Source: Roseburia sp. 499
GTDB taxonomy: Bacteria > Bacillota > Clostridia > Lachnospirales > Lachnospiraceae
DNA: 64,000 nucleotides
Reading direction: 5' to 3'
NCBI RefSeq assembly: GCF_001940225.2
Contig: NZ_CP135164.1
Coordinates: 3,317,826 to 3,381,825 of the forward strand
Numbering within the stretch: the first letter of the stretch is position 1; each line of letters begins with the position of its first letter. A program made the translations under genes and the position numbers. Below the pieces are notes generated by a model. The model was not told the DNA's origin. It saw only the letters and a list, made by a program, of their open reading frames with translations, and ran no database searches. Shown piece by piece: positions 30,508-53,255 of this stretch.

Positions 30508-30508
30508 G

Positions 30509-31441: not shown

Positions 31442-31458
31442 GAAAGGAGGACGATGGA

Positions 31459-32298: not shown

Positions 32299-32310
32299 GG
32301 AGGTGGCAGC

Positions 32311-32727: not shown

Positions 32728-32739
32728 GGCGGTGGTATT

Positions 32740-33309: not shown

Positions 33310-33324
33310 GAAGGAGACTATTAT

Positions 33325-34302: not shown

Positions 34303-34348
34303 AACCTCCTTGTAATAGTCATGTCTGATGATAAATTACAAGGAGGTT
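34303..34348 (+). promoter_or_regulatory. Perfect 14-bp hairpin covering the GTPase ribosome binding site
   Basis: AACCTCCTTGTAAT (34303-34316) is exactly complementary to ATTACAAGGAGGTT (34335-34348), with an 18-base loop. The right arm contains the AGGAGG that serves the ATG at 34357, so the folded RNA would hide the ribosome binding site; the six T residues after it also make it terminator-like. A strong off-state for the GTPase gene is the natural reading. Confidence 0.8.
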
Positions 34349-34356
34349 TTTTCATT

Positions 34357-36531
34357 ATGAGAAAACGTGAAATGACAAAGCTTATGGCAGCTGAGGCACA
34401 TAAGCGAATGAAATCCGCACAGTCGTTGGTAGTCATTGGTCCAACATCGTCAGGAAAGAGCACATTGGTTTATGCATTGGTAAATCATAAGTTGATTAAG
34501 TTCATCATGGTTGGTGTGGGTGATAAGTGTCAGACAACCATAATTCCATGCAACTTTATGTTTGATGCGAGAATAGAGAGAAATGAAGATTTTTCAATCC
34601 AAATCAAAAGTAAGTCATTTTCTACAAAGCCAATTCATATGAAGGTTATGGAGATGCTTGCAAAGCAATTTGCTGCAAATGATTATGATTGTGCTGATAC
34701 TATTGATTCAATTGATGAAGCAGCATTTCAGATGGTTCTTGAACCTACTGATGCTTCATATCATCTCGGAAAGCTAGCGGATGAAATTTCTATTGAACAG
34801 TTTAAGCTAGTAATTAATACAGCACTACTCACTATTGAGAATGCTGAAGAACCTTTCCTTAATCGAGTAAAAGCGAAGAAGAAAGAACCGGATAAGCGCA
34901 AAGTTTCAATAGAAGAGATCAGAAATATTGTGATGGAAGATATGTGGAGTGAGTTGAACCCAATCTTGTTAGAGGAATACCAGGCTTGGTTAAATAGTAT
35001 TGGCAAACTTATTTCTGATAGATTAGACAAGTGCCTTGGTTGCATAGATGACCCTAACAGTATACTTGAGTACACTGTTGATGAGAATGATGCTGAGCTA
35101 AAGTATGGAGGTGCGATTTTACAAAGCCTTTTTGATCCTTTTGAACCATATAGTTTAGTAATCGAGGATATGACTGTTGCCTGCAGACCTAGAGAGGAAC
35201 TTATAAAACAGTTCGATGATAAAATCCCTCTTAGATTTTGTTTGCGAGACACCATGGGACTTAATCAGATTAGTGCAGACAATAATTCTATAAAGGATGC
35301 GCTTGATATAGCATTAAATTGTAGCCCGGATAGCATTTTACTTTTAATGAATTTGGAAGAAAAGGATGAGGTTATCATTGATTGTTGTGAGGCAATTAAT
35401 ACAAGGGTAAGTAAAGCACAGAAACTTGATATTCCAATCTATGTAATATTTACTAAAGCTGACAGAGTGATTAGTAATATTATTAATAAAGCAGAGCGCG
35501 ATACGGTTGAATTAAGACAAGAGGATTATTCGAAGAATATCTGTGGAGCTATTGATACTATGGAAAAGAGCATTAAGAAATACCTTACATGTCTCAAAAA
35601 TCAAGACTCAACGTGGCTTTCAATCAGATATATGGAAGAAAAAATTGATCCAATACAGACTGCATTAAGAGACTTAAATGATGAAAGACGACGCAAGTTT
35701 ACTCAAGATGGTTTGTACGAATTCATTAACGAAGTACTGATGGAAACACAGATGAGAATTCTTCCAAAGGGAATGAAAGCCCCTTTATTTGTTACTGTGA
35801 AAGAAACAAGCTCGCCTGCTATCAATATAAGTGTAATACAAGGGGTTATCAGTACAGAATACAGCCAAATTGTTTCAGCACTAACTACTGAAAAGGCAAT
35901 TGTAAATGGATATCAGATTACCGACACACGTAGGATTCACGGAAGGAGTGTAGTTAGGTATTATGAGAACCTTCAGGTGGGCTTAGGGTATACGACAAAT
36001 GCGTATGTATATGGTAATTTTAGTATCAATATGAAGGGTATGTTAAGAAAAGTGCTTGAAAAATATATTCCTGATTTCCTTACATTGTATGAAAGCGAAG
36101 CTATCAAAACTTTGGCTGATAATCTAGATGATGTCGAACTGGATTATATTATAGAGGAATTAGACGCAAACAAAGATATTACAAGATTTGCGTTTTCGGA
36201 TATTAATCCGGCGGTATTTGATGGATTACCTGAGAAGGCTAGAAAAATTCAGAAGTTACACTTGATTTTCAGACATTACTTTGCTGCTTCTGAGAAGTAC
36301 AATATGGTTATTGATAAGGTTGCATTTAATCTCTCATATGGAAATAAGATTATTCGCAATATGGTTGATCAAAAGTACAATGAACCATATATAACATACG
36401 ACCAGACTATTAGAGATATGCAGGAAAACTTTATTAAGTTCTTCTCTTCCGAAAGATTTGCAGACATGCTTACTACAGAAATTAGTAATGCAATGACCGA
36501 GATTGTAAACAAGATGTTTGTGATTATTTAG
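34357..36531 (+). CDS. Large P-loop GTPase, unknown family
   Basis: A 724-residue protein with the GTPase signature order: G1 at G28-PTSSGKST, G3 as D298-TMG, and G4 as T366-KAD. About 180 residues inserted between G1 and G3 are helical. The C-terminal 330 residues are helical with no clear membrane segment. The overall form recalls dynamin-like or septin-like bacterial GTPases but I cannot name the family. The ATG at 34357 is preferred to an upstream in-frame ATG at 34321 because the latter lies in the hairpin loop without a ribosome binding site. Small zinc-ribbon genes follow. Confidence 0.75.
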   Translation: MRKREMTKLMAAEAHKRMKSAQSLVVIGPTSSGKSTLVYALVNHKLIKFIMVGVGDKCQTTIIPCNFMFDARIERNEDFSIQIKSKSFSTKPIHMKVMEMLAKQFAANDYDCADTIDSIDEAAFQMVLEPTDASYHLGKLADEISIEQFKLVINTALLTIENAEEPFLNRVKAKKKEPDKRKVSIEEIRNIVMEDMWSELNPILLEEYQAWLNSIGKLISDRLDKCLGCIDDPNSILEYTVDENDAELKYGGAILQSLFDPFEPYSLVIEDMTVACRPREELIKQFDDKIPLRFCLRDTMGLNQISADNNSIKDALDIALNCSPDSILLLMNLEEKDEVIIDCCEAINTRVSKAQKLDIPIYVIFTKADRVISNIINKAERDTVELRQEDYSKNICGAIDTMEKSIKKYLTCLKNQDSTWLSIRYMEEKIDPIQTALRDLNDERRRKFTQDGLYEFINEVLMETQMRILPKGMKAPLFVTVKETSSPAINISVIQGVISTEYSQIVSALTTEKAIVNGYQITDTRRIHGRSVVRYYENLQVGLGYTTNAYVYGNFSINMKGMLRKVLEKYIPDFLTLYESEAIKTLADNLDDVELDYIIEELDANKDITRFAFSDINPAVFDGLPEKARKIQKLHLIFRHYFAASEKYNMVIDKVAFNLSYGNKIIRNMVDQKYNEPYITYDQTIRDMQENFIKFFSSERFADMLTTEISNAMTEIVNKMFVII

Positions 36532-38903: not shown

Positions 38904-38932
38904 TTGACATTGTGCGAATGAAAGTGTATAAT
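38904..38932 (+). promoter_or_regulatory. Consensus SigA promoter for the riboswitch operon
   Basis: TTGACA (38904-38909), exactly 17 bases, TATAAT (38927-38932). This is a perfect match to the housekeeping consensus, so control must act after initiation, which fits the riboswitch that begins about 12 bases downstream. Confidence 0.92.
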
Positions 38933-38943
38933 TGTTGTTAGCT

Positions 38944-39022
38944 TGATATTGAGGCAAAGTATGTGAAAACATATGACGCAAAACTATAGGGACTGTAGAA
39001 TGTCAGCCAGTTGCAGTATTGA
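38944..39022 (+). ncRNA. Cyclic di-GMP-I (GEMM-I) riboswitch
   Basis: The aptamer landmarks are all visible: GAGGCAAAG, a P2 stem GTATGT-GAAA-ACATAT with a GNRA tetraloop, the hallmark GACGCAAA directly after it, a P3 region starting ACTATAGGG that contains GTCAGCCAG, and a closing P1 in which GATATTG (38945-38951) pairs with CAGTATT (39014-39020). P3 is short. A terminator hairpin lies six bases downstream, so the switch most likely acts on transcription termination. It places the downstream operon under control of the second messenger c-di-GMP. Confidence 0.87.
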
Positions 39023-39027
39023 TTATT

Positions 39028-39072
39028 AGACACAGTCTTTTCTACAAAATGGGAAAGCCTGTGTCTCTTTTT
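39028..39072 (+). terminator. Riboswitch expression-platform terminator
   Basis: AGACACAG (39028-39035) pairs with CTGTGTCT (39059-39066), then CTTTTT. It lies between the aptamer and the gene at 39092. The bases just before the stem overlap the end of P1, allowing mutually exclusive folding. Confidence 0.85.
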
Positions 39073-39091
39073 GTATCATGTGAGGTGAATT

Positions 39092-39292
39092 ATGAATGGA
39101 TATTTAAAAATTTCAGAAGTTTCAGAAAAGTGGGGGATTAAGGAGAGGAGAATCAATACTTTGTGCCTTGAAGGACGTATAGAAGGCGCTATCAAGTTTG
39201 GGAATACTTGGGCTATACCAGAAAATGCTGAGAAGCCAAAGGATGAGAGAATAAAGAGTGGTAAATATATTAAGGAAAAAAGATTAGTATGA
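39092..39292 (+). CDS. Small helix-turn-helix DNA-binding protein
   Basis: A 66-residue protein: YLKISEVSEKWGIKERRINTLCLEGRIEGA is a winged helix-turn-helix of the excisionase/MerR type, followed by FGNTWAIPENAEKP and a basic tail. Such proteins are common in Firmicutes mobile elements. It is the first gene after the c-di-GMP riboswitch and may regulate the operon or act as an excision factor. A 208-base interval with no clear gene separates it from the helicase. Confidence 0.75.
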   Translation: MNGYLKISEVSEKWGIKERRINTLCLEGRIEGAIKFGNTWAIPENAEKPKDERIKSGKYIKEKRLV

Positions 39293-39500
39293 CATATAGT
39301 GTCTTGGTAATTATATATAATTGGTTAGGAACATTGAGCTATTAATTGTTCTACTAGTACGGCAGAGAAAGGCATGGTATTGAGGTAGATATCTAGTAAT
39401 AAAGATATTAGAAAAAATACTTGGTGTTCTTGGTGTGGGCATAATAGAAACAGTTGTGGTTGCTGATTTACCAAAGTCGTGAGATACGGGGATGAAAGAT

Positions 39501-42500
39501 ATGGCAAATGACAAAGATTTTACGAAATTGATAGCGGGAATTGTTGGTGCTAGTATTGCAGGTGTAGCGGTATCTGCAACGGTTAAAGGTGTTAAATCAT
39601 CAAGTAATAAAGACAAAGAAATAACCAATGCAACACACAAAAAAACATCAGATGATATTTTTGAGGAAGAACGTATCAAACAGGAAATGGATGATATGTG
39701 GAAACAAAAACAAATGGATGATATGTGGGAAGAACATAGAATTATGCAGCATTCAGTATGTGGCTCGGAAAGGAACAATATGGCAGATAGAAATGATAAT
39801 AGCTTTTATGACAATGATGAATATGAAATCGACGATTATGAAAATGAATATGACGAGGACGATGAGTATGATGAAGAAGACGAAACAGAAGAAATAGATA
39901 ATTCGGAAATGTCATTTTATGGACGCAACATTTGTATTTTGCTAAACGATAGTGAAGATGATAGAAGAAATAAATTAAAGACAAGCGAAGCAAATCTGGT
40001 TAAGAGATTCCCAAAATTAAAGGAATTATCTTCAATAGATAGAATGCAGCAAATCTTGGACGGATTATTTCCTGAAGGTTTTCAGAAGCAGATGTATGTA
40101 AGAAATCTTACCTTTACGGGTAAGAATGGTTATGATGTCAAGGTTCTTGGAATAAGACCTGAAAGAACACCAGGAGATTTTCTTGAAGGTTATTTACCAG
40201 ATGAAGTGTCTTTGCTTTTTAAAGGACATATTGCTGGGAAGGAATTTCGAGTTGATTCAGTCTTTGAAGTAATGGATACAGAGCAGCTTGACTTTGAGGT
40301 GGATGTTGTTGCCACTCCTTATCAATCTCCTGAAAGAATAGGGGCAAACTTCCTTTATGATATTTTGGATAATGCCGGTTCACTTACAGAATATACAGGT
40401 GAAAAACTTGAAGAGTGGAAGGAGTATTTGGCGTGGAAACGAGAACTTGCTAGTCGTCAGATTTATGGATGCAAGTATTTCAAGGTAGGATTCGACGAAG
40501 AAAAGAAAAGGTTGAATTTCTGGCTCGTCTTTGAAGATCCGGATACATTTAAGGCATTTAAGAAGTATTTAAGCCGTGATATTCAAGTTTTTGACAATAA
40601 CTATTCAAAGGATAAATGGCATTTTGATTTTGCTGGAGATATCAATAATAGAAAGCAGCGATTTAATAGTGTAGAACTTGGACGTTATAGAGGCGTTGTT
40701 AGCGAATACTATCTTAGGGATAATAGTGAATTCTTTGATGAAGAGCAGGAAGAAAAACATATATTAACCGAAGAAGAGTGGATGAGTGGCGACTATGATG
40801 ATGAAGTATATGAAGAGGAAACTTCAAAGGGAAGTATTTACGAAGCATATGATAATCCTTATATAGTTCAGGTTGCTTATGATCTTAATCGTAGAGATAT
40901 AGATGAGATAAATCAGCGTAATTTAGACGATGAGGAAGCAGTTCAGTATGTATACGATAATATTTTAGGTAATTACTATACGGATGGATTCTTGGCACTG
41001 TCTGCAATAGGAGATTTTGTACTTATTAGAAGATTCCAGCAGGCGATAGATCAGCTTGAAAGAGACGAATGCTATTCTCCAAACCTAGCCATGTGGCTTT
41101 TTAATGTAAACAGAGCAAGAACTCCTGAAGATATCGACATAGATATAGATAAGTGGCTTAACCCAAAAATAGAGAAAAATGAAAATCAGAAGGAAGCTGT
41201 TAGAAAAATGCTTGCTGCACCTGATTTATGTTTAGTTCAGGGTCCTCCAGGAACAGGTAAGACAACAGTTATTGCTGAGGCAATCTATCAGTTTGTTCGT
41301 AGAGGGGATAGAGTCCTTGTGGCATCGCAATCTAATGATGCGGTGGATAATGCATTGGAACGATTGGCAGATTCACCTGAAATTAGAGCTATAAGATTAG
41401 GTCAAAAAGGCAAGAAAAAGAGAAAAGTTGAAGATTTAAGTACCAGAAAGTTTGGAGAAGATGAGGCACTTAAATACTATTATCATGCTCTTTCACTTCA
41501 ACTATCGAAGAATTGGCTTGATTTGTGGGATTCACTAGAAAGCGGTGGTGTACAGTACGACACAGATATTCGAGATGCGAGCCTTTTTAACCAAGATATT
41601 GCTTCTTTAAATACAGAATTGTCAGGATTAAATCAGGAGTATGAGGATGTAAGAAAAGAATTTGCCTTATTAACAAAGGAATTTGAAAGGGCCAATGATG
41701 AAAATACAAAGTTAGAAGAGGATAGACATCAGTATCGACTGGCATCAGATTGTTTTAACGGTGAATCAGATTCACAGTTCTATTTGTCTGAGGACATGCT
41801 AAAAATCTTCGAAACAAAGCTGAATAAGCTTATAGATATTACTACAAAAGTAGGTATATACCTTACGCCTGGCTTGCTCGATGTTGAAGTAATGGGACTT
41901 GGAAAAGAACAAGCCTATGTATATATGATTTCCAAGAATCTTAAGACACTGAGCGGATTATGTGAGAAGATTCGGAGCGCAAAGGGAAATGATAGTAGTA
42001 ATGATGGAGAGATATTAATCCTTAATAGTCAGCTGTCTGATGTAAAGCAGAAACTTTTGGAGTGTTTGCAAGAAGATGACACTGATGGAGCCGCACAGTA
42101 TACAAAAGAAATGAAGTCGTTACAAAAGAGAATTGATGAACTTAAATTCTCGTCCTCGGTGGTTACTATTTCTGATGTTGAAAAGAGCATTTTGGGGAAA
42201 AATGTAATAGATGGTATTGAAGCTGGCGACACGGATAAATGGTTAGAAACATTTACTTTAGTTATCGATAAATGGACACAGGCTATTGCGTTAGCTTTGG
42301 CTACAGTTAAGGAAGAAATCGCATCACGAAAAAGTATAGATGTATCCGAAATAATAAAACGACGTTCTGTTGCTGAAAGTAAAGTGTCAGAAATTGTTGA
42401 AAGAATGGACAAAACGAAAGCTCAGATAATTACTAAAAAGCAAACGTTATTAAAACTAAGAGAAAAGTACGACATAGAATCCACTAATGCTAACGATATC

Positions 42501-43820
42501 ATTGCTCATATCAAGCAGTTAAAGGAAAACAATATTAGGCAGCTTAATGAGCAGAGAAGTTTTAGAAATGATTGGGAAAAAACAATTAGAGGTTTCAAAG
42601 AGCGTTTGGATGATGCAGATGCATTTAAGTATGACCAAGAACATTATCAGCAGATTTATATAAATGCATGTAATGTAGTAGGCATTTCTTGTACCGATAA
42701 TATGAGGAATCTAACTGATAACGGATACAATGACTTTGATGTTGTAATAATTGATGAGGTTAGTAAAGCGACTCCACCAGAACTTTTGATTCCATTAATG
42801 AAGGCACGTAAAGCAATACTTGTAGGTGACCATAGACAGCTTCCACCTATGTTCAAAGAGCACGAAGGGTCTTATAAGGAACTTGCCGAAAGCCAAGAAA
42901 ACGCACCAGAAGAGGTAAGAGATTTACTCACCCAGGATAATTTTAAGAGATTCCAAAAGATGGTTACTTCTTCATTGTTTAAGGATTATTTTGAACAAGC
43001 TGAAGATGAAATAAAGCATTCTTTGTTGGTACAGTATCGCATGCATACAGACATCATGGATATTATAAACCGATTCTATGAGCAACGTTTATCATGTGGT
43101 AATTCAGAAGAAGTTGAACGTATGGAGAAGAGCCACGATTTAACTATTAAAGGTGTAGATGGTAGTACTTTTATTACTCCGACAAGACATGCATATTGGA
43201 TTGACTCTTCTTTCACTCCGAGTGACAAGCCGATCTATGAGGTTAGACCTAATAATAGCACCTCAAATTATAATGTCTTGGAAAAGTATATTGTAATGGA
43301 GTTGTTAAAGAAAATTGCTGATGCATATAGAGAGCAAGGATATAACAAAAACAATAAAAAAACTGTTGGAGTTATCAGCTTTTATCAGATGCAGGTAAAC
43401 GAGATTAGAGAAGCGTTTAGAGAAGCAAAAAGAACATTTGATTTTTCGGCTATTGATGTGGATATTAATACAGTGGATAGATTCCAGGGTAAGGAAAAGA
43501 ACATCATCATTACTAGTTTGGTAAGAAACAACGAAAAGGGACGTGCTAGTAAGCATGTAGTTGCTTTTGAACGTATTAATGTTGCGTTTTCAAGAGCTCA
43601 GGAGCTTCTGTTTATTGTTGGTGCTAAACATATGTATGAGAATCAAGCTGTTCAACTTCCTAATATGGATATGCCGGGATTTAAGACGGCTCCTGTATAT
43701 AAAAACATTATGGAAGGACTTAACAGAAAAGGATGTTTTAAGACTTGCAATAAGATAATAACACCAGAAATAGAGGAAGAAATTATTGCTGAGTATAAAG
43801 AGATGGGGGGAAAATTATGA
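39501..43820 (+). CDS. Superfamily 1 helicase (Upf1/DNA2-like AAA_11/AAA_12)
   Basis: A 1439-residue protein. After a hydrophobic patch near residues 11-29 and a very acidic stretch (about 95-135), a helicase core begins near residue 550. Walker A is G581-PPGTGKTT, Walker B is IID1085-E1086, and the later motifs VQYRMH, GVISFYQ, VDRFQ1329G and VAFSRA are intact. A long helical insertion (about 680-1060) splits the core between motifs I and II. ATG 39501 is preferred because GGGG lies at a proper distance; ATG 39492 is the alternative. It overlaps the next gene by ATGA, so helicase and PIN nuclease are made together. Confidence 0.88.
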   Translation: MANDKDFTKLIAGIVGASIAGVAVSATVKGVKSSSNKDKEITNATHKKTSDDIFEEERIKQEMDDMWKQKQMDDMWEEHRIMQHSVCGSERNNMADRNDNSFYDNDEYEIDDYENEYDEDDEYDEEDETEEIDNSEMSFYGRNICILLNDSEDDRRNKLKTSEANLVKRFPKLKELSSIDRMQQILDGLFPEGFQKQMYVRNLTFTGKNGYDVKVLGIRPERTPGDFLEGYLPDEVSLLFKGHIAGKEFRVDSVFEVMDTEQLDFEVDVVATPYQSPERIGANFLYDILDNAGSLTEYTGEKLEEWKEYLAWKRELASRQIYGCKYFKVGFDEEKKRLNFWLVFEDPDTFKAFKKYLSRDIQVFDNNYSKDKWHFDFAGDINNRKQRFNSVELGRYRGVVSEYYLRDNSEFFDEEQEEKHILTEEEWMSGDYDDEVYEEETSKGSIYEAYDNPYIVQVAYDLNRRDIDEINQRNLDDEEAVQYVYDNILGNYYTDGFLALSAIGDFVLIRRFQQAIDQLERDECYSPNLAMWLFNVNRARTPEDIDIDIDKWLNPKIEKNENQKEAVRKMLAAPDLCLVQGPPGTGKTTVIAEAIYQFVRRGDRVLVASQSNDAVDNALERLADSPEIRAIRLGQKGKKKRKVEDLSTRKFGEDEALKYYYHALSLQLSKNWLDLWDSLESGGVQYDTDIRDASLFNQDIASLNTELSGLNQEYEDVRKEFALLTKEFERANDENTKLEEDRHQYRLASDCFNGESDSQFYLSEDMLKIFETKLNKLIDITTKVGIYLTPGLLDVEVMGLGKEQAYVYMISKNLKTLSGLCEKIRSAKGNDSSNDGEILILNSQLSDVKQKLLECLQEDDTDGAAQYTKEMKSLQKRIDELKFSSSVVTISDVEKSILGKNVIDGIEAGDTDKWLETFTLVIDKWTQAIALALATVKEEIASRKSIDVSEIIKRRSVAESKVSEIVERMDKTKAQIITKKQTLLKLREKYDIESTNANDIIAHIKQLKENNIRQLNEQRSFRNDWEKTIRGFKERLDDADAFKYDQEHYQQIYINACNVVGISCTDNMRNLTDNGYNDFDVVIIDEVSKATPPELLIPLMKARKAILVGDHRQLPPMFKEHEGSYKELAESQENAPEEVRDLLTQDNFKRFQKMVTSSLFKDYFEQAEDEIKHSLLVQYRMHTDIMDIINRFYEQRLSCGNSEEVERMEKSHDLTIKGVDGSTFITPTRHAYWIDSSFTPSDKPIYEVRPNNSTSNYNVLEKYIVMELLKKIADAYREQGYNKNNKKTVGVISFYQMQVNEIREAFREAKRTFDFSAIDVDINTVDRFQGKEKNIIITSLVRNNEKGRASKHVVAFERINVAFSRAQELLFIVGAKHMYENQAVQLPNMDMPGFKTAPVYKNIMEGLNRKGCFKTCNKIITPEIEEEIIAEYKEMGGKL

Positions 43821-46273
43821 TTTTTTCAGAAGTAACACTTTCATACCCTTGTGTACAGCATAATGTTGAAGTCGCACATTTTACAGCTAGAAAATCCACA
43901 GCTATTGAGTGGCTTATTCTTGAGGCTATTAGCAAGTGTGAGAAGCTGACTAATTACACTGGTATTTCAATAGGTGATTTTTTTGAACAGATATTTACAA
44001 TTTCAGATGCTGATCTTTTGATTAGACCAGTTTTAATCTCGCTACAAGACATGGGAGCGATAACTATATCAGGAATTGATGATGAGACAGAACTTGATAC
44101 AGTTGCAATGAGCAATTTAAAATTGACCAACACTGGACGAGAAATGCAAACTTTGGGGCTTTTACCTGGGACAACATCAGAAGAAACTTTTTCCATTTAC
44201 TATGATATTGTTGCTGAATCTTTGAAAGATGAAGCAAATGTTTTCAAAGAAGAGTCAACTGGGATCCGAGTAATTGATATTGAGGATGCAGATGATACAG
44301 AATTTCCGGAAGGAGCAATTAGAGAGTGGTTATTCTCCATTCAGAACGATAAAAAGCGAAAGCGGTTAAACTGGCTTACTCCAACAACGAGGATAGAGTC
44401 GATCACTCGTCTTGGCTCAGAATTATATTGGAAAAATATCACACGAAAAGTTGAACTAGTCGAGGGAATGCGTTGGAAGGTTTCTGGAGTAGAGGATGAG
44501 AATATAGATGAGGTTACATTAGAAGAATCGGATATTTCATGTCCCGAGAATTTAAAAGATTTACCTTATTTGGAGATATCAGATCCAGATGCCGAAATAA
44601 AAAGACTTGTATCAATTGCAGAAATCAATTCATTAATAGGGGAATTCCTTCAAAAGGATGATTTGTTTTGTGTAGAGTCAAAGTACTATAAGGACATAAA
44701 GGTAAATCAGCAAGGCAAGAAAAAAATCAGAATAGGAATAGTATATGGTTTTGATAAGTTTGAGGTAGAGAGCAAAGGAAAGCAAATCATTATACGTGTA
44801 CCTGATTGTGAATTTAGGAGTATGGGACTTTACTTTAATACAAAAGATTCGGTACAGGCAGGCATTGCTACGGTAACCGCAGGATCTATTTCTAAAGATA
44901 TCGCAATTGCATATATTCCAAATACAAGTGAGATAAGCCTTACTAATACTGTAGTGGAAATTGTTGATAAATATTACGCTCAAGATAATACTATTTTGTT
45001 TGCATTATATGAACTCGGACTAAAGGAAATGTTCTTGCAATATTCCGAACGTATTATTTCTGAAGAGGAAAATATTGCAGATAAAGCTAAAACAATTGAA
45101 CAGTTTAATGAGAAGAGCAGGGGCTATTATGGACAGAATATTATTTCAGCGGCAGACAAGGAAAGGTTGCTTGTAAACGAGAATTACATAGTGGGAAAAT
45201 GCCAGACAATAGAAGGTGCTAAGAATGTTATAGCAGAGTATGCAGAGATAAATGCATTTAGACAAGACGAAAGTTTATTCCAACGAATAATGAAACTGTC
45301 TATTGAAACTGTTGGTGAGCAAGACTCTTTGGAAGATATATGGGATTTTTGGAAGGCTATTTCCTCAGCAAAGAAAGCCTATATAAACTGGGTTACAAAA
45401 CTTGGCCTCCAGAAGAAACTGTACTCAAAGAAAAGTATTATGACCTTTATAAATAAATTCACTGACGAAAATATTTTTGAAATTGAGGAATATACTGCTG
45501 TTGAACAGATTATTCTTAGTATGAGAAGAATATCATTGCAAATAGAAAATATGCTGCCCGAACTGAATCTGTATAAAACGGTTAGCGAAGAAAAATATAA
45601 TGAGCTTGTACTTAGTCACATCGATATTATTGAGAATCTGTATGATCAGTCTAGAAAATGGCAGGATGAAGAAGAACGTTTCAATAATAAGATAATTGAA
45701 CTAGAGGAAATACTTACGACAGATACACCATTTGATAATGTAAGAAAGAATATATCCGGACTGCGTAATGCTCTTGCTACATTCTTTGATGATTCCTTCA
45801 TGAGATTTAATAAGGTGTATATTGTGGATACATGTACACTTATGAATGAACCTAGCTTGATTTCATGGTTTGATGGGGAAAAAGCATTACTTGTTATTCC
45901 AATGATTGTACTTGATGAACTTGATGGCTTAAAGAGTGATGAAGATGAAGAAAAAGCTTTCAAGGCAAGAGAGGTAATTAGAAATATTAGTAATTACAAA
46001 GCATACGATTGGCTGAGCACAAGCGAATCAAGTCATCCGGAATTGCTTTCAGATGATTTAGATAAAGAACGAAATGATAATAAAATTCTGTCGATTGCAA
46101 TTCGGTACTGTGCAAAGAAACCTATTCTGTTAACTGATGATATTAATCTTGGAAACATCGCAAGTGCAAATAAAATTGAGAATATGACTCTTGAAGCATA
46201 TCAAGCGATGAAGCAACACGAGAAGTTGTCAAACAAGGGTAATAGTAAGAAATCAAAGAAAAAGAAGAAATAA
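43817..46273 (+). CDS. PIN-domain nuclease with large helical N-terminus
   Basis: An 818-residue protein. The C-terminal 150 residues are a PIN RNase domain with the acidic set Asp671 (VDTCTLM), Glu701 (VLDELDGLKSD), Asp754 (RNDNKIL) and Asp774 (LTDDINLG). The first 660 residues are unknown, with a mixed N-terminal part and helical middle. A Lys-rich tail ends the protein. PIN domains cut RNA, often tRNA or mRNA, and serve as effectors in conflict systems; pairing with an SF1 helicase suggests sensing or unwinding by the helicase and cutting by PIN. Confidence 0.82.
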   Translation: MIFSEVTLSYPCVQHNVEVAHFTARKSTAIEWLILEAISKCEKLTNYTGISIGDFFEQIFTISDADLLIRPVLISLQDMGAITISGIDDETELDTVAMSNLKLTNTGREMQTLGLLPGTTSEETFSIYYDIVAESLKDEANVFKEESTGIRVIDIEDADDTEFPEGAIREWLFSIQNDKKRKRLNWLTPTTRIESITRLGSELYWKNITRKVELVEGMRWKVSGVEDENIDEVTLEESDISCPENLKDLPYLEISDPDAEIKRLVSIAEINSLIGEFLQKDDLFCVESKYYKDIKVNQQGKKKIRIGIVYGFDKFEVESKGKQIIIRVPDCEFRSMGLYFNTKDSVQAGIATVTAGSISKDIAIAYIPNTSEISLTNTVVEIVDKYYAQDNTILFALYELGLKEMFLQYSERIISEEENIADKAKTIEQFNEKSRGYYGQNIISAADKERLLVNENYIVGKCQTIEGAKNVIAEYAEINAFRQDESLFQRIMKLSIETVGEQDSLEDIWDFWKAISSAKKAYINWVTKLGLQKKLYSKKSIMTFINKFTDENIFEIEEYTAVEQIILSMRRISLQIENMLPELNLYKTVSEEKYNELVLSHIDIIENLYDQSRKWQDEEERFNNKIIELEEILTTDTPFDNVRKNISGLRNALATFFDDSFMRFNKVYIVDTCTLMNEPSLISWFDGEKALLVIPMIVLDELDGLKSDEDEEKAFKAREVIRNISNYKAYDWLSTSESSHPELLSDDLDKERNDNKILSIAIRYCAKKPILLTDDINLGNIASANKIENMTLEAYQAMKQHEKLSNKGNSKKSKKKKK

Positions 46274-46282
46274 GGAGGTTTT

Positions 46283-47413
46283 ATGAGTAGTTCATATGAA
46301 TATTCTTATGCTCTTGAAGCAGCGCGTAGGAGACAAATCTATTTGAATCGAATTGCTTCAACAACAGAGCAATTTTTTAATCGGTATAATCAGCAGTATA
46401 GAGAAATGAAAAACCGTGGACTGGCTGCATATATTCCATCTGAGATGAGCAGATTAGAATCGGATCTTTCCAGAATTAGAAGCTTATTAACCTCCAATCC
46501 AGAAGAAGCAAGAGACCTTAGTTACGAGGTGGGTTCATATATTAGAAGTATGTCGTCATTGGCTTCTGGGGCTCGTGAACAATTTGAACGTGCCGAAAGA
46601 ATGCGAGTTGAGGCACTTAGAGAAGAAAGAGAACATCAGCAGAGTGCCTTGATGAAAGAGTATTTTGAAATTTTGCAGACAATAACTAATCCAATAGTTG
46701 TTAACTATTCCATTTCTGAAATGCAGCAAATTAGGCGCGAGATTGAAAATGGCAGATTGACAAGTTCTTCAGAACTTAGAAAGAAGTCAGCAGATGTAAT
46801 ATCATCTGCAGAAATCAAGGCTGTTGAATGGAAAGAAGGAACAATTAAGAAAAATCGTCAGAAAGACGCGGCACAAGCTCTTAGTGAGGCTGAAGAGCGT
46901 CTTAAAACAGAGAAAATAGAAAATCAAGAAAAAACACAAGAGTTTTTGGATAAAATTAGCAAGCTCAAAGCAGGGCTTGATGCAGGAACTGTTGATGCAG
47001 ACACTGTTGAAAAGCAGGTGGTTTCTATTGAGAGTGAAGTTGACGATACCCTTATTTCTGAAGAAACAAGGCGTGAAACTGTGATGGCAATTGTCAAACA
47101 GCTTAAGAGTCAGGAATTTACTGTAGAAAAACCACAGCTGGTACAGACAGACGGCAAAAATTTTGTGAAGATAGTAGCAAAGCAACCATCGGGTAAACGT
47201 GCAATCTGCAATGTGGACTTGCATGGAAAGATAGCATATAAATTTGATAATTATGCTGGAATGACTTGCTTAAAGGATATAGAAAAATTTAATGTTGATC
47301 TTGAACAAGTTTATTCAGTAAAGTTGTCTGATGAAAGAGTATTGTGGCAAAATCCAGACAGACTTTCTATGGATGCAAATAGCTTACCGAGTAATGAAGG
47401 GAGAAAGGCATAA
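46283..47413 (+). CDS. Coiled-coil protein of the helicase/PIN operon
   Basis: A 376-residue protein with AAGGAGG before the ATG. Residues about 1-280 are heavily helical and charged with coiled-coil character (QFERAERMRVEALREEREHQ, EAEERLKTEKIENQEKTQ). The C-terminal 90 residues form a small mixed domain (FVKIVAKQPSGKRAICNVDL and after). It has no catalytic motif. It may bridge the nuclease and the AAA+ ATPase. The stop overlaps the next start (TAATG). Confidence 0.72.
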   Translation: MSSSYEYSYALEAARRRQIYLNRIASTTEQFFNRYNQQYREMKNRGLAAYIPSEMSRLESDLSRIRSLLTSNPEEARDLSYEVGSYIRSMSSLASGAREQFERAERMRVEALREEREHQQSALMKEYFEILQTITNPIVVNYSISEMQQIRREIENGRLTSSSELRKKSADVISSAEIKAVEWKEGTIKKNRQKDAAQALSEAEERLKTEKIENQEKTQEFLDKISKLKAGLDAGTVDADTVEKQVVSIESEVDDTLISEETRRETVMAIVKQLKSQEFTVEKPQLVQTDGKNFVKIVAKQPSGKRAICNVDLHGKIAYKFDNYAGMTCLKDIEKFNVDLEQVYSVKLSDERVLWQNPDRLSMDANSLPSNEGRKA

Positions 47414-49263
47414 TGGCGGATAAAGAATTGAATCTTTGGCTAGAGCGATTTAGCCGAGATATAGGATATAAATCTTCAGTAATAGTTTTTGGAAACACAG
47501 CTGATATAATGCTTAATCCTAGAAATTCTGGTAAATATGACTCAGTAATAAATACTCTTATTTCTTATATTCGAGATAAAGGATTTAAGCAGGTTGTTAA
47601 ATGGGATCGTGTAGACGGGATTGATCACAGTATATCAGACGAAATTGTTGGTGTGGATGATCAGAATGTGCAGGAACCTAGTTCTAATGATTATGACTTG
47701 GGTGGTTATGATTTAGGTGATAATACAAATCAGGGGAGAAACTGCTATAAGTCACCAGATGAATTCTTCCCTTATATGCTAAATGTAATGAAGAATAGCT
47801 CAAATAGGACAGCTTTCATATTAGATTATTCAGATTATATTTTTGGAAATGCAAATTCACTATCTGAGAAGGAACGTGATTATCTTGCAACACTGGGAAA
47901 AACGCTTGAAGCAGGCCAATCCTACAATATGCTCGATAGCGATTTTGCAGATATAGGAAATATTGTTGTTATAGTGGCTCACAATAACGCAATGATTCCG
48001 CCTGCGTATTATCTGAATAATTCGATGGTTAGTTCCGTAAGCGTTCCTTTGCCTGGACACAATGAAAGAGAACACTTTATTGATACTAATAGAGCGTGCT
48101 TAAATATTACACAGGACATTATTTCAGATAAAACTGCTAAAGATGACCTGATTGATGCACTAGATGGTTTTTCACTTAAGGATATTGCACAGATGATGAA
48201 GTTATCAAGACAGATGACAGAAAAAATGTCATTTGAGAAACTTATCAATCTATTCAAATATGGTGAGAAAGTAAGTCCTTGGGAAGAATTATCAAAAGAT
48301 AAAATAGAGCGTATTGAGGAAGAACTCGGTAAAAGAGTTAAAGGTCAGGATGCGGCGATTTCAAAAGTGAAGGATGTAATTATCAGGGCATATACAGGTT
48401 TTTCAGGTTTACAGCATTCATCAAAGCAGAAAAAACCGAAAGGAACATTATTCTTTGTTGGACCTACAGGTGTTGGTAAAACGGAACTTGCGAAATCATT
48501 AGCTAGTTTTGTATTTGGAGATGAAAATGCATGTATTCGTTTTGATATGTCTGAATATAACCACGAGCATAGTGATCAGAGGCTTGTTGGAGCGCCTCCA
48601 GGATATGTTGGATATGAGGCAGGTGGACAGCTTACTAATGCAGTAAAAGAAAAGCCATTCTGTGTTTTGCTATTTGATGAAATTGAAAAAGCGCATGGAA
48701 GAATTCTTGATAAGTTTTTGCAGATACTTGAAGACGGACGTCTTACTGATGGTAAGGGTGAGACGGTTTATTTTTCTGAAACAATTATTATCTTCACATC
48801 AAATATAGGTGCTGCAGAAGTAGATTCTAACATGGACTCAAAGGAAGTTAAGAAGCAGTTTGTGGAAAAAGTGCAGAAACACTTTATAGAGGAATTAGGA
48901 AGACCGGAGTTACTAAACCGTATTGGGGATAATATTGTTGCATTCAACTTTATTGATGATCCAACTGTATTTACGAAGATTGCAAAATTGAAGTTTAAGA
49001 CAATCGAAGACTTCGTAGAGGAGAGATATGGAGCAAGAATTGCATTTGAAAATGAGGATGAGATTTTTGTATCTATAGGCAAGAAGGCTGGAAAGCAAAA
49101 TGGTGGTCGAGGTCTTTTAAATGTTATGGAAACGGTGATTATTAATCCGTTATCAGAGTTTATCTTCGAGAGATCTGATATGTTGAGAAATAGACAGATC
49201 TTGATTAAACCGATGTTTCCGGACAGACCGGAATTATGCAGGTTTGAGTTTGAATTGAAGTAG
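47413..49263 (+). CDS. ClpB/ClpA-like AAA+ ATPase
   Basis: A 616-residue AAA+ protein. The C-terminal half is a ClpB D2-type module: Walker A G350-PTGVGKTE, the substrate pore loop PPG397-YVG, Walker B VLLFDEIEKAH, sensor FTSNIGA and the C-terminal small domain. The N-terminal 300 residues look like a degenerate AAA domain without a Walker A motif (FILDYSDYIF, VVIVAHN and LPGHNER segments keep the fold's spacing). There is no ClpP-binding loop visible. A disaggregase or remodelling role on the partner proteins is likely. Confidence 0.85.
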   Translation: MADKELNLWLERFSRDIGYKSSVIVFGNTADIMLNPRNSGKYDSVINTLISYIRDKGFKQVVKWDRVDGIDHSISDEIVGVDDQNVQEPSSNDYDLGGYDLGDNTNQGRNCYKSPDEFFPYMLNVMKNSSNRTAFILDYSDYIFGNANSLSEKERDYLATLGKTLEAGQSYNMLDSDFADIGNIVVIVAHNNAMIPPAYYLNNSMVSSVSVPLPGHNEREHFIDTNRACLNITQDIISDKTAKDDLIDALDGFSLKDIAQMMKLSRQMTEKMSFEKLINLFKYGEKVSPWEELSKDKIERIEEELGKRVKGQDAAISKVKDVIIRAYTGFSGLQHSSKQKKPKGTLFFVGPTGVGKTELAKSLASFVFGDENACIRFDMSEYNHEHSDQRLVGAPPGYVGYEAGGQLTNAVKEKPFCVLLFDEIEKAHGRILDKFLQILEDGRLTDGKGETVYFSETIIIFTSNIGAAEVDSNMDSKEVKKQFVEKVQKHFIEELGRPELLNRIGDNIVAFNFIDDPTVFTKIAKLKFKTIEDFVEERYGARIAFENEDEIFVSIGKKAGKQNGGRGLLNVMETVIINPLSEFIFERSDMLRNRQILIKPMFPDRPELCRFEFELK

Positions 49264-49271
49264 GTGATTAG

Positions 49272-49838
49272 ATGGCTTATTTAAATCTTGCGTCTATTAG
49301 ACTTTGTACTGAGTCTGAGGGACCTGGAAAAAGAATTGCTATATGGGTTCAAGGGTGCGAAAGAAGATGCCCTGGGTGTTGCAATCTTGATATGCAGGAA
49401 ATACGAAAAAACATAATAGTAGATACAAATGATTTGATAGAGCTTATTCAAAAATCTATGGCTTCAGATGAAATAGAAGGTTTGTCATTTATAGGTGGTG
49501 AACCAATGTTGCAAGCTGAAGGGTTAAGTGAAATTGCAAAGTGGGCTCATTCGGTTGGGCTCACAGTACTTGTGTTCACTGGTTATTTATATAATGAACT
49601 GGTTGAGATGAATAATAAAAGCGTGGATGAACTCTTGTCAAATATTGATTTGATAGTGGACGGACCATATTTGCAGGAATTGTATGATAATGAACGTGAT
49701 TGGATTGGTTCAAAAAATCAAAACATCCATTTTTTAACACAAGCTTATGAGCCTGGGATAGAATTTGAAAAGCAAGAGCACCAGATGGAGGTTTTGGTTT
49801 CGGAAAACGATATCTTGGTAAATGGATGGCCATATTAG
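49272..49838 (+). CDS. NrdG/PflA-like radical SAM activase-type protein
   Basis: A 188-residue 4Fe-4S protein with the radical SAM motif C29-ERR-C33-PG-C36 and the glycine-rich segment FIGGEPMLQ that binds SAM. It resembles the activases of anaerobic ribonucleotide reductase (NrdG) and other glycyl-radical enzymes, but no NrdD or glycyl-radical partner is in the window. It is the last gene of the tight operon (eight bases after the ATPase), and the RiPP precursor follows 188 bases later. It could modify a protein of the operon or join the RiPP pathway. Confidence 0.82.
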   Translation: MAYLNLASIRLCTESEGPGKRIAIWVQGCERRCPGCCNLDMQEIRKNIIVDTNDLIELIQKSMASDEIEGLSFIGGEPMLQAEGLSEIAKWAHSVGLTVLVFTGYLYNELVEMNNKSVDELLSNIDLIVDGPYLQELYDNERDWIGSKNQNIHFLTQAYEPGIEFEKQEHQMEVLVSENDILVNGWPY

Positions 49839-50026: not shown

Positions 50027-50137
50027 ATGCAGGAGCTTAATAATGCAATTATTGAAGAGTCTTGGCAGGATATCAACCGTGCAGAGTGTGAAGAGTCTAG
50101 CTTGTTTGACATGTGTTCATGGGGAGAAGCTAACTAA
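50027..50137 (+). CDS. Candidate RiPP precursor peptide, 36 residues
   Basis: A 36-residue acidic peptide starting MQELNNAIIEESWQD and ending DMCSWGEAN. The ATG has a very strong AGGAGGGAGG eight bases upstream, more than expected by chance for a short frame. The N-terminal part resembles a helical leader; two Cys (21 and 30) and a Trp (32) lie in the C-terminal half, suitable for thioether, carbon-carbon or similar cross-links by radical SAM enzymes. It stands alone before a terminator and three radical SAM genes, the usual layout of a ribosomal peptide cluster. The product class is not recognised. Confidence 0.72.
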   Translation: MQELNNAIIEESWQDINRAECEESSLFDMCSWGEAN

Positions 50138-50216: not shown

Positions 50217-51197
50217 TTGCAAATATATTTTTTGTTAACTGAAAATTGTAATTTGAATTGTTCTATGTGCATAAGAGGAAGACAAGAAGGAATTAATATG
50301 GATATAGAACAACTTGAGGCTGTATTAGCGAAAAATGATTTTTCGCATCATGATATTGTTATTACAGGTGGAGAACCATCAATACATTCAAGGTATCAAG
50401 AAATTGTAGAATTAATGTGTTCGAAGGCAAAAACAGTGACTGTTACTAGTAATGGCACCCTTGACCTACATATAGATGCATTAACTCAGTATGATAATTT
50501 GTTTTTTCAGATATCGTTGGATGGCGATGAATTAGAACATAACGATATTAGAGGGGATGGAACATTCACAGTTACTTGGAACACTCTTGAAAAATTGGAT
50601 TGTCTTAAGATGAAATATGTTGTTGCATCTGTAGTGAGTCGAAAAAATAAGGATAAAATATTTAAATTAGCATCCAAATTAGAGACTTTGAAAAATATGC
50701 GATTTTGGAGAATTTCATATGAGATGCCGTTTGGGAGTGCTGAGGGACTTTCAAATATAATGGGAGCAGATGAATGGAATATGTTTGTGGATAGCTTGAT
50801 AGACATTGTAAAGTTTAGGATGATAATTCAAAAAATATTCCCATTTGATTTATATGATAAAAAAAAGGATGAATTGGATGAAATTGCAAAATCAAGAAAC
50901 AGAAGTCTAAATTGTGGAAGTGGAACAAGTAAAATATATGTATATCCAGATTTTAATGTCTATCCATGCACATGTCTTACTGATTTTTGTGTGGGAAATC
51001 TTACAAATGAGAAATTAGAGGATATATTGGGAGGACCTAAGAATAGGCTTTTTTCCGAGTATGCGCTCAAGGAAGAATCTGAATGTCAGAAATGCGAATA
51101 TAAAACATTTTGTAATGGAGGTTGTGTAGGAATGTCTTACCATTATTTTGGTGAGCTTGGAATGGGTGACAAAAGATGCCCGAAACTACATAAATAA
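50217..51197 (+). CDS. Radical SAM/SPASM peptide maturase, first of three
   Basis: A 326-residue enzyme starting at TTG 50217, seven bases after AGAGGTGA. The radical SAM cluster is C11-NLN-C15-SM-C18 with the SAM-binding ITGGEPS. The C-terminal part is a SPASM domain holding auxiliary iron-sulfur clusters (LNCGSG, YPDFNVYPCTCL, GNL, then CQKCEYKTFCNGGC). SPASM radical SAM proteins modify peptide side chains in RiPPs. The next gene starts two bases after its stop. Confidence 0.9.
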   Translation: MQIYFLLTENCNLNCSMCIRGRQEGINMDIEQLEAVLAKNDFSHHDIVITGGEPSIHSRYQEIVELMCSKAKTVTVTSNGTLDLHIDALTQYDNLFFQISLDGDELEHNDIRGDGTFTVTWNTLEKLDCLKMKYVVASVVSRKNKDKIFKLASKLETLKNMRFWRISYEMPFGSAEGLSNIMGADEWNMFVDSLIDIVKFRMIIQKIFPFDLYDKKKDELDEIAKSRNRSLNCGSGTSKIYVYPDFNVYPCTCLTDFCVGNLTNEKLEDILGGPKNRLFSEYALKEESECQKCEYKTFCNGGCVGMSYHYFGELGMGDKRCPKLHK

Positions 51198-51199
51198 AG

Positions 51200-52093
51200 A
51201 TGAGAATATTTTATTTTAATATTACGTACGGTTGTAATAGCAATTGTATTTTTTGCTATTCCCACAATACAAAGCATAGTAAAAAAACTTACAACGAAAT
51301 ATCTTCAGAGGCGTTCTTTAAGTATCTAGATGATAATAATTTGAAACCGGAGGATAGAGTAATTATAAATGGTGGAGAACCTTTTTTGCATTCGCAGATA
51401 GATTGTATATTGAAAGGATTACAAACATATGGCTGTGAAGTTTTGATATATACAAATGGTAGATTAGTGAAAAATTTTTCGCTTGAATATCTGTCAGAAA
51501 AATATAGATTTGTTATTCCTATTCATGGATATGAGGAGATTCATGATAAGATTACAGGAGTGCCTGGAAGCTATGATGAAACCCTTCAGAGCCTTCATTA
51601 TCTAAAAGATAATGTAAGGTGTAAAGTAGATATAAAAATTATTATTAATAACTATATGATAGATCAAGACCCTGACAAAAATAAGCTGGGGATTTCGTTA
51701 GCAAATGTTCCTTTTAATAATGCTGTACATATAACTAAGATGGCAGATACTATAGTTTCAAAACGAAATGGATGTAAAAGCGTGAAAAATGAAAAGGCCG
51801 CAGAGTACACTAAATGGTTGTTTGATTATTACAAGAGTAGGGATATTAATATAAAATTGTTTGACACATGCGTTAAAAATATAGAATGGGAAAAATATGG
51901 TGAGATGCCCCATTATCTTGACAGCATAACAGTTTACTTTAAAGATAAAAATCAATTTAGAGAAATGATTCTTGAAAGGTCATTGCCCGAGTGTATGCCT
52001 ACGTGTATGTGCAAAGAAAAGTGCGTTTCAGCTGTTGATGAGTACAAGGCGATTGAATTTGTTAAGGGAAAAATAATTGAAAATTTGGAGTGA
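51200..52093 (+). CDS. Radical SAM protein, second of three
   Basis: A 297-residue enzyme with C12-NSN-C16-IF-C19 and INGGEPFLH. There is no ribosome binding site of its own, so it should be translated by coupling to the first enzyme. The C-terminal segment has a Cys cluster (LPECMPTCMCKEKCVS) that may hold an extra iron-sulfur cluster but is shorter than a full SPASM domain. Probably acts on the same peptide or on the product of the first enzyme. Confidence 0.87.
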   Translation: MRIFYFNITYGCNSNCIFCYSHNTKHSKKTYNEISSEAFFKYLDDNNLKPEDRVIINGGEPFLHSQIDCILKGLQTYGCEVLIYTNGRLVKNFSLEYLSEKYRFVIPIHGYEEIHDKITGVPGSYDETLQSLHYLKDNVRCKVDIKIIINNYMIDQDPDKNKLGISLANVPFNNAVHITKMADTIVSKRNGCKSVKNEKAAEYTKWLFDYYKSRDINIKLFDTCVKNIEWEKYGEMPHYLDSITVYFKDKNQFREMILERSLPECMPTCMCKEKCVSAVDEYKAIEFVKGKIIENLE

Positions 52094-52097
52094 AAAA

Positions 52098-53255
52098 ATG
52101 ATACATGAAATTGCATTAACGATAAAGCCAACAATGAGTTGTAACATGAGGTGCAAGCATTGCTTTAATGGCGACATACTGAACTCTTCTGAAATGTTAG
52201 AATTGGATAAGGTTAAGAACTTTATTGAGGCTGCCTGCAAAAAATATAAAGATGTCAAAATAACGTTTCATGGCGGGGAGCCGACTCTTGCAGGAATTGA
52301 ATATTACAAAACTGTGTTCTCATTTCAAAATGAGATGAAGATTAAATATGGAACAAAGTTTTCTAATAATTTCACAACCAATGCATTGTTATTAAATGAT
52401 GAACTGATGGAATTGTTGATAGAAAATAATGCACTTATCAATATTTCTTTTGATGGCCCATATAATGATTATTTGAGAGCATATAGTGATATTGTTCTTG
52501 ATAGAATTATGAATGTAAAGTCCAAAGGTGGGAGAACCCGAGCATTCTGTACCATATCCAAAGGATCATATGAACATTTAAAAGATATTTATTTGTGGTT
52601 CAGTGAGCGAGCGATTGATTTTAAAATATTACCTATTGAACCTAGGGGTTACGCAGCAATTGATAAGGAACTCCTTATGGACATAGATATTTTTATGAAG
52701 AATCTTACTGAAACTTACAGATATTGGCTATTGGATAAGAATTGTGACATAAGATTTTATACGTTTGAAGAATTTGCAGATCTTCGGAGAACTACTCAAT
52801 TCAAGCCGTTTTGGTTTAAGCGAGAAATTGCGCTTAATCCAGATGGTAAAATATACCCATTTGGAAGACCAAACGATATACAGTTTTGTCTTGGTGAATC
52901 AGATGATAGTCTTGATTTAGAGGCATGTTTTTCTTCTAAAGAATATGAAAGAATGATAGAGATATTGCAAGCATACAGAGAACAGTATTGTAAGAAGTGC
53001 TCTGCTACGATGGTTTGTAATGGAGTTTGTATCTGTATGTCATATATGTATGTTCAAGATTCACAGTTACTAGAATATAGCTGTAATCAGTCTAGACATA
53101 TTTTCGAAAATATACTAGATATTAATGACGAGGTCATTGAAGATATTCGTACAGGGAATGATGAAAAATATAATGAATTCGCAAGAAATATTTTTATGAA
53201 GGATATAGATAATTATGCAAAGAGTATTTCGTTCAAGAGGAATCAGATTAATTAA
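52098..53255 (+). CDS. Radical SAM/SPASM peptide maturase, third of three
   Basis: A 385-residue enzyme. ATG 52098 follows GGAGTG and lies five bases after the previous stop. The core has C15-NMR-C19-KH-C22 and FHGGEPTLAG, of the anaerobic sulfatase-maturase/SPASM type. The end carries CKKCSATMVCNGVCICMS. The last 41 bases overlap the next gene. Sequence differs enough from the first two that three separate modification steps are plausible. Confidence 0.88.
   Translation: MIHEIALTIKPTMSCNMRCKHCFNGDILNSSEMLELDKVKNFIEAACKKYKDVKITFHGGEPTLAGIEYYKTVFSFQNEMKIKYGTKFSNNFTTNALLLNDELMELLIENNALINISFDGPYNDYLRAYSDIVLDRIMNVKSKGGRTRAFCTISKGSYEHLKDIYLWFSERAIDFKILPIEPRGYAAIDKELLMDIDIFMKNLTETYRYWLLDKNCDIRFYTFEEFADLRRTTQFKPFWFKREIALNPDGKIYPFGRPNDIQFCLGESDDSLDLEACFSSKEYERMIEILQAYREQYCKKCSATMVCNGVCICMSYMYVQDSQLLEYSCNQSRHIFENILDINDEVIEDIRTGNDEKYNEFARNIFMKDIDNYAKSISFKRNQIN

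Follow-up and report, generated by a model that had tools for sequence, protein, structure and literature searches.

We report here on five adjoining genes of Roseburia sp. 499, hereafter the core, which lie on the forward strand (39492-49838) of a window of 64,000 nucleotides (the whole stretch analysed, positions 3,317,826 to 3,381,825 of contig NZ_CP135164.1). They encode a superfamily 1 (SF1) helicase, a PIN-domain protein, a long-helix protein, an AAA+ protein and a small radical SAM protein (Table 1). The window is the end of a single contig of 3.38 Mb; a conjugative element, in which there are genes for a relaxase and for TraG-like, VirD4-like and Tad-like proteins, makes up its left part. 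The five genes are separated by -4, 9, -1 and 8 bases, in agreement with the small overlaps and gaps given in a first-pass annotation made from the sequence alone.

Table 1. Features of the core and its immediate surroundings (positions in the window)
Feature	Position	Strand	Basis and remarks
Sigma-70-type promoter TTGACA-17-TATAAT	38904..38932	+	12/12 consensus positions; similar DNA in L004
c-di-GMP-I riboswitch aptamer	38943..39018	+	RF01051, 56.4 bits (gathering score 35)
Terminator-like hairpin and U-run, possible expression platform (inferred role)	39028..39073	+	RNA fold
66-aa open reading frame (ORF), helix-turn-helix-like by look of sequence, possible regulator	39092..39292	+	relative in L004
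UPF1/IGHMBP2-type SF1 helicase, MkoA-like, ~360-residue insertion	39492..43820	+	Pfam, PADLOC, PDB; 1442 aa
PIN-domain protein, N-terminus weakly MkoB-like, PIN C-terminal	43817..46273	+	Pfam, PADLOC, PDB profile; 818 aa
Long-helix (coiled-coil) protein, probable scaffold	46283..47413	+	conservation, structure model; 376 aa
Hsp100/ClpB-like AAA+ protein, degenerate first AAA-like domain, intact second	47413..49263	+	Pfam, motifs, profile; 616 aa
NrdG-like radical SAM protein	49272..49838	+	Pfam, motif, NCBIfam; 188 aa
RiPP-like precursor, 36 aa, ends MCSWGEAN	50027..50137	+	partner in L037 (G318) 17870-17977, ends MCSWGEFN
Radical SAM/SPASM protein 1	50217..51197	+	Pfam; 48% identical in G318
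Radical SAM protein 2	51200..52093	+	Pfam; 41% identical in G318
Radical SAM protein 3	52077..53255	+	Pfam; 46% identical in G318

The helicase matches AAA_11/AAA_12 in Pfam and, in PADLOC, the MkoA protein of the Mokosh system (E 7.4e-109); MkoA was also the best PADLOC match of both plasmid helicases tried (Acinetobacter, 8.7e-96; Moellerella, 7e-102). Its score lies below the cut-off of the NCBI IGHMBP2-family model, and its nearest PDB relatives are SMUBP-2, DNA2 and UPF1. Exact patterns for motifs I, II, III and Q(Y/F)RMH are present at all 12 core loci that we compared, i.e. the window, L004, L005, the genomes G318, G412, G817 and G837, and one plasmid each of Polaromonas, Acinetobacter, Moellerella, Photobacterium and Leisingera. 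The first-pass annotation had noticed an unusual insertion of 380 residues in the helicase core. This insertion (some 360 residues by our estimate) is real and conserved, because about 500 residues separate motifs I and II (503 in the window, 482-518 at 11 of the 12 loci, 394 in Leisingera), as against about 140 usual for UPF1.

In the second protein a PIN_4 domain is recognised at residues 668-791 (E 1.1e-18), and the profile of this family is closest in the PDB to EST1A/SMG6, in its PIN part (E 0.0035). The acidic columns D671, E701, D754 and D775 are kept at all ten loci having the PIN domain. A weak match to MkoB covers residues 6-179 (PADLOC, E 0.0092), and an MkoB-like N-terminus, limited to the first ~120-210 residues, is found in nine of the 15 alignment members and in three of seven divergent PIN proteins (best E 1.1e-5). 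The structure model reaches a predicted local distance difference test score (pLDDT) of 72 and a predicted template modelling score (pTM) of 0.42, with most of the PIN part below 50. In G412 (L038 3657-5069) and G837 (L134 3891-5330) the PIN genes end before the PIN domain, and the other four core genes are open.

The coiled-coil protein has a sub-threshold Pfam match only. The protein, including its C-terminal region, is conserved at 12 of 12 loci, and its model (mean pLDDT 76, pTM 0.43) places helices within residues 3-276, residues 315-376 being below 50; it probably acts as a scaffold. Two relatives of 497 and 527 residues (P0335 and P0344) have an N-terminal helical region that looks duplicated.

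The ClpB-like protein matches AAA_2 (Pfam, E 3.6e-52). Exact patterns for its Walker A, TSN(I/L)G and GGRG motifs occur at all 12 loci; stricter patterns are found at 11 (Walker B), ten (pore loop) and eight (arginine-finger stretch), the failures being some plasmid loci. For residues 1-286 a profile search gave AAA+ chains, paraplegin being the best (E 9.3e-4), and since no Walker A was seen there we read this first AAA+ domain as degenerate. A full-length ClpB chaperone can be discarded (TIGR03346, 277.1 bits versus a cut-off of 1232.1). The best PADLOC matches, PDC-M37B (E 9.9e-33) and DolB (E 1.2e-20), both AAA proteins, are limited to the AAA part (residues 243-483).

Finally, the fifth protein matches Fer4_12 (Pfam, E 2.7e-34) and carries CxxxCxGC, the motif of NrdG (the activase of class III ribonucleotide reductase), at all 12 loci. 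It does not qualify as an NrdG activase equivalog (TIGR02491, 104.1 bits, below the cut-off of 126.1), and it also differs from NrdG in its company, as none of the five core genes, the only ones considered for this, encodes a reductase. Prokaryotic viperin was rejected as well: scores of only 26-45 bits, versus a cut-off of 180, were obtained for the NrdG-like protein and for radical SAM proteins 2 and 3, and we read their PADLOC pVip matches (E 4e-8 to 1e-14) as general radical SAM likeness. A glycyl-radical-like motif was considered as the target of the NrdG-like enzyme and dropped, the pattern being present in only two of 60 core proteins.

Distribution and common inheritance of the core

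The idea that the five genes form one functional unit, put forward in the first-pass annotation, is well borne out by their order, which is identical at 12 of 12 loci of unrelated lineages with short gaps (at most 61 bases, in Acinetobacter), and by trees that agree on the main splits. This also rules out that the genes are neighbours in one element family only. The core ranges over two classes of Bacillota and over alpha-, beta- and gammaproteobacterial plasmids. The pairwise identities computed for one core gene correlate with those of the others (rho 0.77-0.91). In all five gene trees Bacillota stand apart from Pseudomonadota, G318 groups with G817, and Acinetobacter groups with Photobacterium (support 93/94 for the scaffold, higher for the other genes); the placement of Polaromonas, of Moellerella and of the three Lachnospiraceae loci varies or is unsettled between trees.

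The core is sporadic in the genomes searched, which are a sample (some 1,900 genome look-ups, with repeats). Searches with the PIN protein found it in two of 398 genomes of the phylum (Roseburia sp. 499 itself and G318), 49 more matching only residues 621-797, the PIN part, and in two of 391 genomes of the class (Roseburia sp. 499 and G412). Profile searches gave 3/151 and 3/189 in the family of G318 and 1/38 in that of G412; in the Roseburia family two of 200 genomes had full-length matches, with five PIN-only matches besides, and the scaffold was found in two of 368. The L004 and L005 loci were found by a genome scan. Among 72,556 plasmid records, ten carry the scaffold (six from Moellerella and one each from Polaromonas, Acinetobacter, Photobacterium and Leisingera); when one plasmid per lineage was opened, the five genes stood in order in all five. 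Protein searches returned 196 relatives of the PIN protein, 425 of the AAA N-terminal part and 591 of the scaffold; among the 120 of each listed are proteins named from Fusobacterium, Veillonella, Megamonas and Roseburia, known here by name and not by gene context.

A phage origin was also considered and rejected: the PIN protein and the Moellerella scaffold have no match among 50,697 phage records, and none of the 18 pattern matches from a scan of viral contigs with the PIN alignment was confirmed. The relatives of the ClpB-like protein on viral contigs are ordinary Hsp100s, as the matches of the best 80 of 585 all begin at residue 196 or later. Apparent relatives of the Moellerella scaffold/AAA DNA in E. 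coli were likewise set aside (1,459 of 5,426 genomes match, and in none does the match span more than 80% of the query); of 1,466 matches, the 20 listed are Clp-type genes covering 10% of the query.

DNA on either side of the core

Behind the core, DNA similarity breaks off at the gene 5 stop codon or no more than three bases beyond it in five of five comparisons (window/L004, window/L005, window/L038, L004/L005 and G318/G817, which share members and are not independent). In G318 and G817, for instance, the core proteins are 77-86% identical and the genes behind them are different.

What follows in the window is a short precursor-like gene and three radical SAM genes (Table 1), which, like the 66-aa ORF upstream, the first-pass annotation of the core did not include. 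The same set, precursor and trio, stands behind the core in G318, the core proteins being 30-55% identical between the two loci and the radical SAM proteins 41-48%. The six-residue run MCSWGE shared by the two precursors was reached in none of 200 shuffled pairs. Like the radical-SAM clusters for ribosomally synthesised and post-translationally modified peptides (RiPPs) with DynA-, StsB- or PapB-type maturases, this cassette combines a short acidic precursor having a conserved C-terminal motif with radical SAM/SPASM proteins; it differs in that the window scores all fall far below the NCBIfam cut-offs, the best for radical SAM protein 3 being DynA with 129.1 bits (cut-off 450). To judge from its sequences, the cassette looks like an undescribed RiPP-type cluster, though no precursor library was searched and MCSWGE(A/F)N may be known. 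On plasmids, radical SAM protein 3 matches 27 records; these were rejected as generic maturases, the 20 listed all being 24-37% identical. A related trio also exists in G827 (L151 4707-7961), with a precursor-like ORF at 4707-4841; a pyridoxal phosphate-enzyme-looking ORF follows.

The other cassettes are of quite different kinds. In G817 the core is followed by HAD, carbamoyltransferase, nucleotidyltransferase-like, DUF6270, SIS, histidine-phosphatase-like and HAD genes (two of these, the nucleotidyltransferase and the phosphatase, score just below the Pfam cut-offs). The same order, from carbamoyltransferase to HAD, recurs in Moellerella, with four genes 38-45% identical to those of G817; there the cassette is upstream of the core, with insertion-sequence and other genes between. 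Of the 72,556 plasmid records, the DUF6270 gene matches only the six from Moellerella in which the scaffold and the PIN protein were also matched. The Acinetobacter core is followed by three genes, of which one is thymidylate-kinase-like and one encodes a radical SAM protein; the radical SAM gene has a full match in plasmids to its own record only, and three partial ones at 34%. In L004 a transposase-like ORF comes first, then a kinase-like gene, one that is radical-SAM-like (below cut-off), an unassigned gene and a glycosyltransferase; L005 has a PP-loop/phosphatase fusion and three unassigned genes, and Photobacterium two divergent radical SAM genes upstream of the core. In G837 a CRISPR-like array (L134 8981-9907; 13 copies of a 37-nt repeat, 71-74 nt spacing) begins about 60 bases past the last core gene, and neither Polaromonas nor Leisingera has biosynthesis-type genes beside the core. 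The contig of G412 ends behind the core and was left out of the count. Thus eight of the 11 loci with visible surroundings have biosynthesis-type genes beside the core (six downstream, two upstream), a count made without a matched control.

The first-pass annotation had called the core c-di-GMP-controlled. This may hold for the window, where a cyclic di-GMP riboswitch lies downstream of a consensus promoter and would gate expression of the genes behind it; it is the only RF01051 match above cut-off in the 3.38 Mb genome, in which there are 18 GGDEF matches. The hairpin proper of the possible expression platform spans 39028-39066, followed by the U-run, and was not listed by a simple terminator scan. 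The claim does not extend to the core in general, as the riboswitch was not found at the Rfam gathering score at the 11 other loci (the G837 contig shows only 138 bases upstream of its helicase gene), and we have given up c-di-GMP control as a defining trait. L004 keeps the promoter-like DNA and the 66-aa gene (ORF at 546-740, 92% identity over 61 residues), yet has no Rfam match at E <= 1.

Known systems and possible function

To our knowledge, no known helicase defence system combines a Mokosh-like helicase and a PIN partner with a motor of the Hsp100 type and with a radical enzyme, and searches of an open-licence library turned up no description of the five-gene combination. The earlier opinion that the combination matches no named defence system nevertheless needs qualification. 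The unit is unmatched by the PADLOC 2023 models tried, but its helicase alone is called MkoA, and the N-terminus of the PIN protein is weakly like MkoB. Mokosh is defined, in the passages of PMC11672841 devoted to it, by the MkoA helicase, MkoB, a PLD nuclease that is separate or fused, and, in type I, a Ser/Thr kinase. The core resembles type I in that its nuclease is likewise a separate protein; it has PIN in place of PLD, three extra conserved genes and cassettes. Since PLD and Ser/Thr kinase domains were looked for in the window's five core proteins and gave no match at E <= 0.05, the core, as judged from its proteins, is not a member of Mokosh, which is its closest named system by function. 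The related papers that these searches listed mention Mokosh or treat conflict systems in general (PMC11291487, PMC12278908, PMC11672841, PMC10013915, PMC7159879, PMC10853773). According to one of these (Kaur et al. 2020, PMC7159879), SF1 helicase modules accompany PIN effectors in NTP-dependent ternary conflict systems, one subtype of which has a radical SAM domain proposed to modify a peptide effector; the core differs from these systems in that vWA, MoxR and FtsH were not found among the window's five core proteins.

Another parallel is eukaryotic. UPF1 and SMG6 are an RNA-decay pair of eukaryotic nonsense-mediated decay, and the core similarly has a UPF1/IGHMBP2-type helicase and a predicted PIN endonuclease, with UPF1 and SMG6 among the nearest solved structures. 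The other components are unlike, and we do not claim orthology.

With a probability of about one half, we think that the core is a mobile RNA-surveillance-like complex, probably an anti-invader system, often located beside an exchangeable cassette. We observed the homology, gene order, motifs, co-inheritance, gene-5 boundary and cassettes; what we infer is an RNA substrate, a role in defence, the tasks of the scaffold, ATPase and radical enzyme, and a cooperation between core and cassette. The helicase would engage foreign or aberrant RNA, or R-loops, and the PIN protein would be its nuclease partner, recruited to cut. The helical protein would be the scaffold on which the complex assembles, and the Hsp100-like ATPase could load, remodel or reset it. 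The NrdG-like enzyme might introduce an activating modification into a core partner or perform a redox check on it. Conjugative elements and plasmids would carry the core as an anti-invader system, accompanied here by the radical-SAM peptide cluster. Kept intact in two phyla (and in a third, Fusobacteriota, going by protein names only) and present on conjugative DNA, the core is a concrete candidate for a defence or conflict system not described before.

Several observations weigh against this interpretation. The PIN domain is absent at two of the 12 loci (the proteins of G412 and G837 end at 470 and 479 residues), and it is therefore not an obligatory effector. The resemblance to MkoB is weak and is missing from six of the 15 alignment members and from four of the seven divergent PIN proteins. 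Neither the PIN protein model nor the scaffold model has a Foldseek match at E <= 0.001. The helicase patterns for motif V (VDRFQG) and motif VI (FSRA) are found at only eight and nine of the 12 loci, failing at some plasmid loci. Defence-type genes do lie within 15 kb of all five plasmid cores (on a lenient reading of the annotation, toxin-antitoxin and ArdA genes being counted), but they also occur in two or three of five control stretches of the same plasmids, in one case the same BREX locus, so that we do not take the neighbourhood as proof of a defence role. Finally, the scaffold search detected no core in G827, which has its radical SAM trio (32-40% identical, in another order) and a precursor-like ORF, recognised by eye.

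This last point also counts against the main alternative, which we consider possible though on the unlikely side. In this view the core would serve the cassettes as a chassis; it would control their product (a peptide, or a carbamoylated sugar-like or nucleotide-like compound), protect from it, or install it on RNA, ribosomes or a partner, the NrdG-like enzyme taking part in the chemistry and defence being secondary or absent. Such a role would fit the co-directional biosynthesis-type genes behind the core at six of the 11 loci (the window, L004 after a gap, L005, G318, G817 and Acinetobacter) and those upstream at two (Moellerella and Photobacterium), as well as the recurrence of two cassettes with distant cores, the precursor with three radical SAM proteins and the carbamoyltransferase set, the latter in two phyla; the coincidence of the plasmid records of DUF6270 and scaffold points the same way. 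However, three of the 11 loci (G837, Polaromonas and Leisingera) have no cassette, the cassettes are so unlike in their chemistry that a common step is hard to name, and the eight in 11 have no matched control. A more tentative, rather improbable possibility is a modular system of a new kind, in which a conserved RNA-sensing helicase/Hsp100/radical-SAM core would be joined, for the most part at one set place after gene 5, to swappable chemical warheads (radical-SAM peptides, carbamoylated sugar-like compounds, or products of a kinase and radical SAM enzymes); in cores lacking PIN, the effector would then be the cassette, or else the other enzymes of the core. If true, the sensing of an invader would be tied to small molecules or peptides as interchangeable effectors. 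The fixed position of the cassettes, one of which includes a precursor-like peptide, makes a connection between immunity and natural-product chemistry that can be put to the test.

Two further explanations seem to us quite improbable. The core could serve the mobile element itself, in transfer, in establishment or in suppressing host barriers during conjugation; indeed the conjugative element of the window encodes a relaxase as well as TraG-like and VirD4-like proteins, and five loci are plasmids, two of the five opened being typed as conjugative. On the other hand, L005 has its core on an 85 kb Lachnospiraceae contig beside genes that look chromosomal, scaffold relatives also occur on contigs of 2.6 and 3.1 Mb, and no one transfer system is common to the core loci. 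It is no more probable that we are dealing with an ordinary stress or RNA-quality-control operon switched by c-di-GMP lifestyle signals, as the riboswitch, the 18 GGDEF matches and the resemblance of the helicase/PIN pair to UPF1/SMG6 might suggest, for the core is sporadic and mobile (scaffold in 2/368 genomes of its own family, PIN protein in 2/391 of the class) and the riboswitch was not found at the 11 other loci.

Other features of the window

The Tad-like pilus genes of the conjugative element (28083-34065) comprise T2SSE, two T2SSF and a sub-threshold RcpC/CpaB match. Two GTPase-like genes flank the module, one at 34321-36531 (736 aa, sub-threshold GTPase and dynamin matches) and one at 57050-58213 (387 aa, MMR_HSR1/IIGP). 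Also close to the module is an LRAT-domain gene (58241-59026); a related LRAT gene lies directly upstream of the Acinetobacter core (L144 7909-8574, 36% over 159 aa). The contig end (60374-63998) holds four group II intron matches (RF02001, RF01999, RF01998 and RF00029) and two long ORFs (60735-62129 and 62673-63917), an arrangement that suggests nested or tandem introns.

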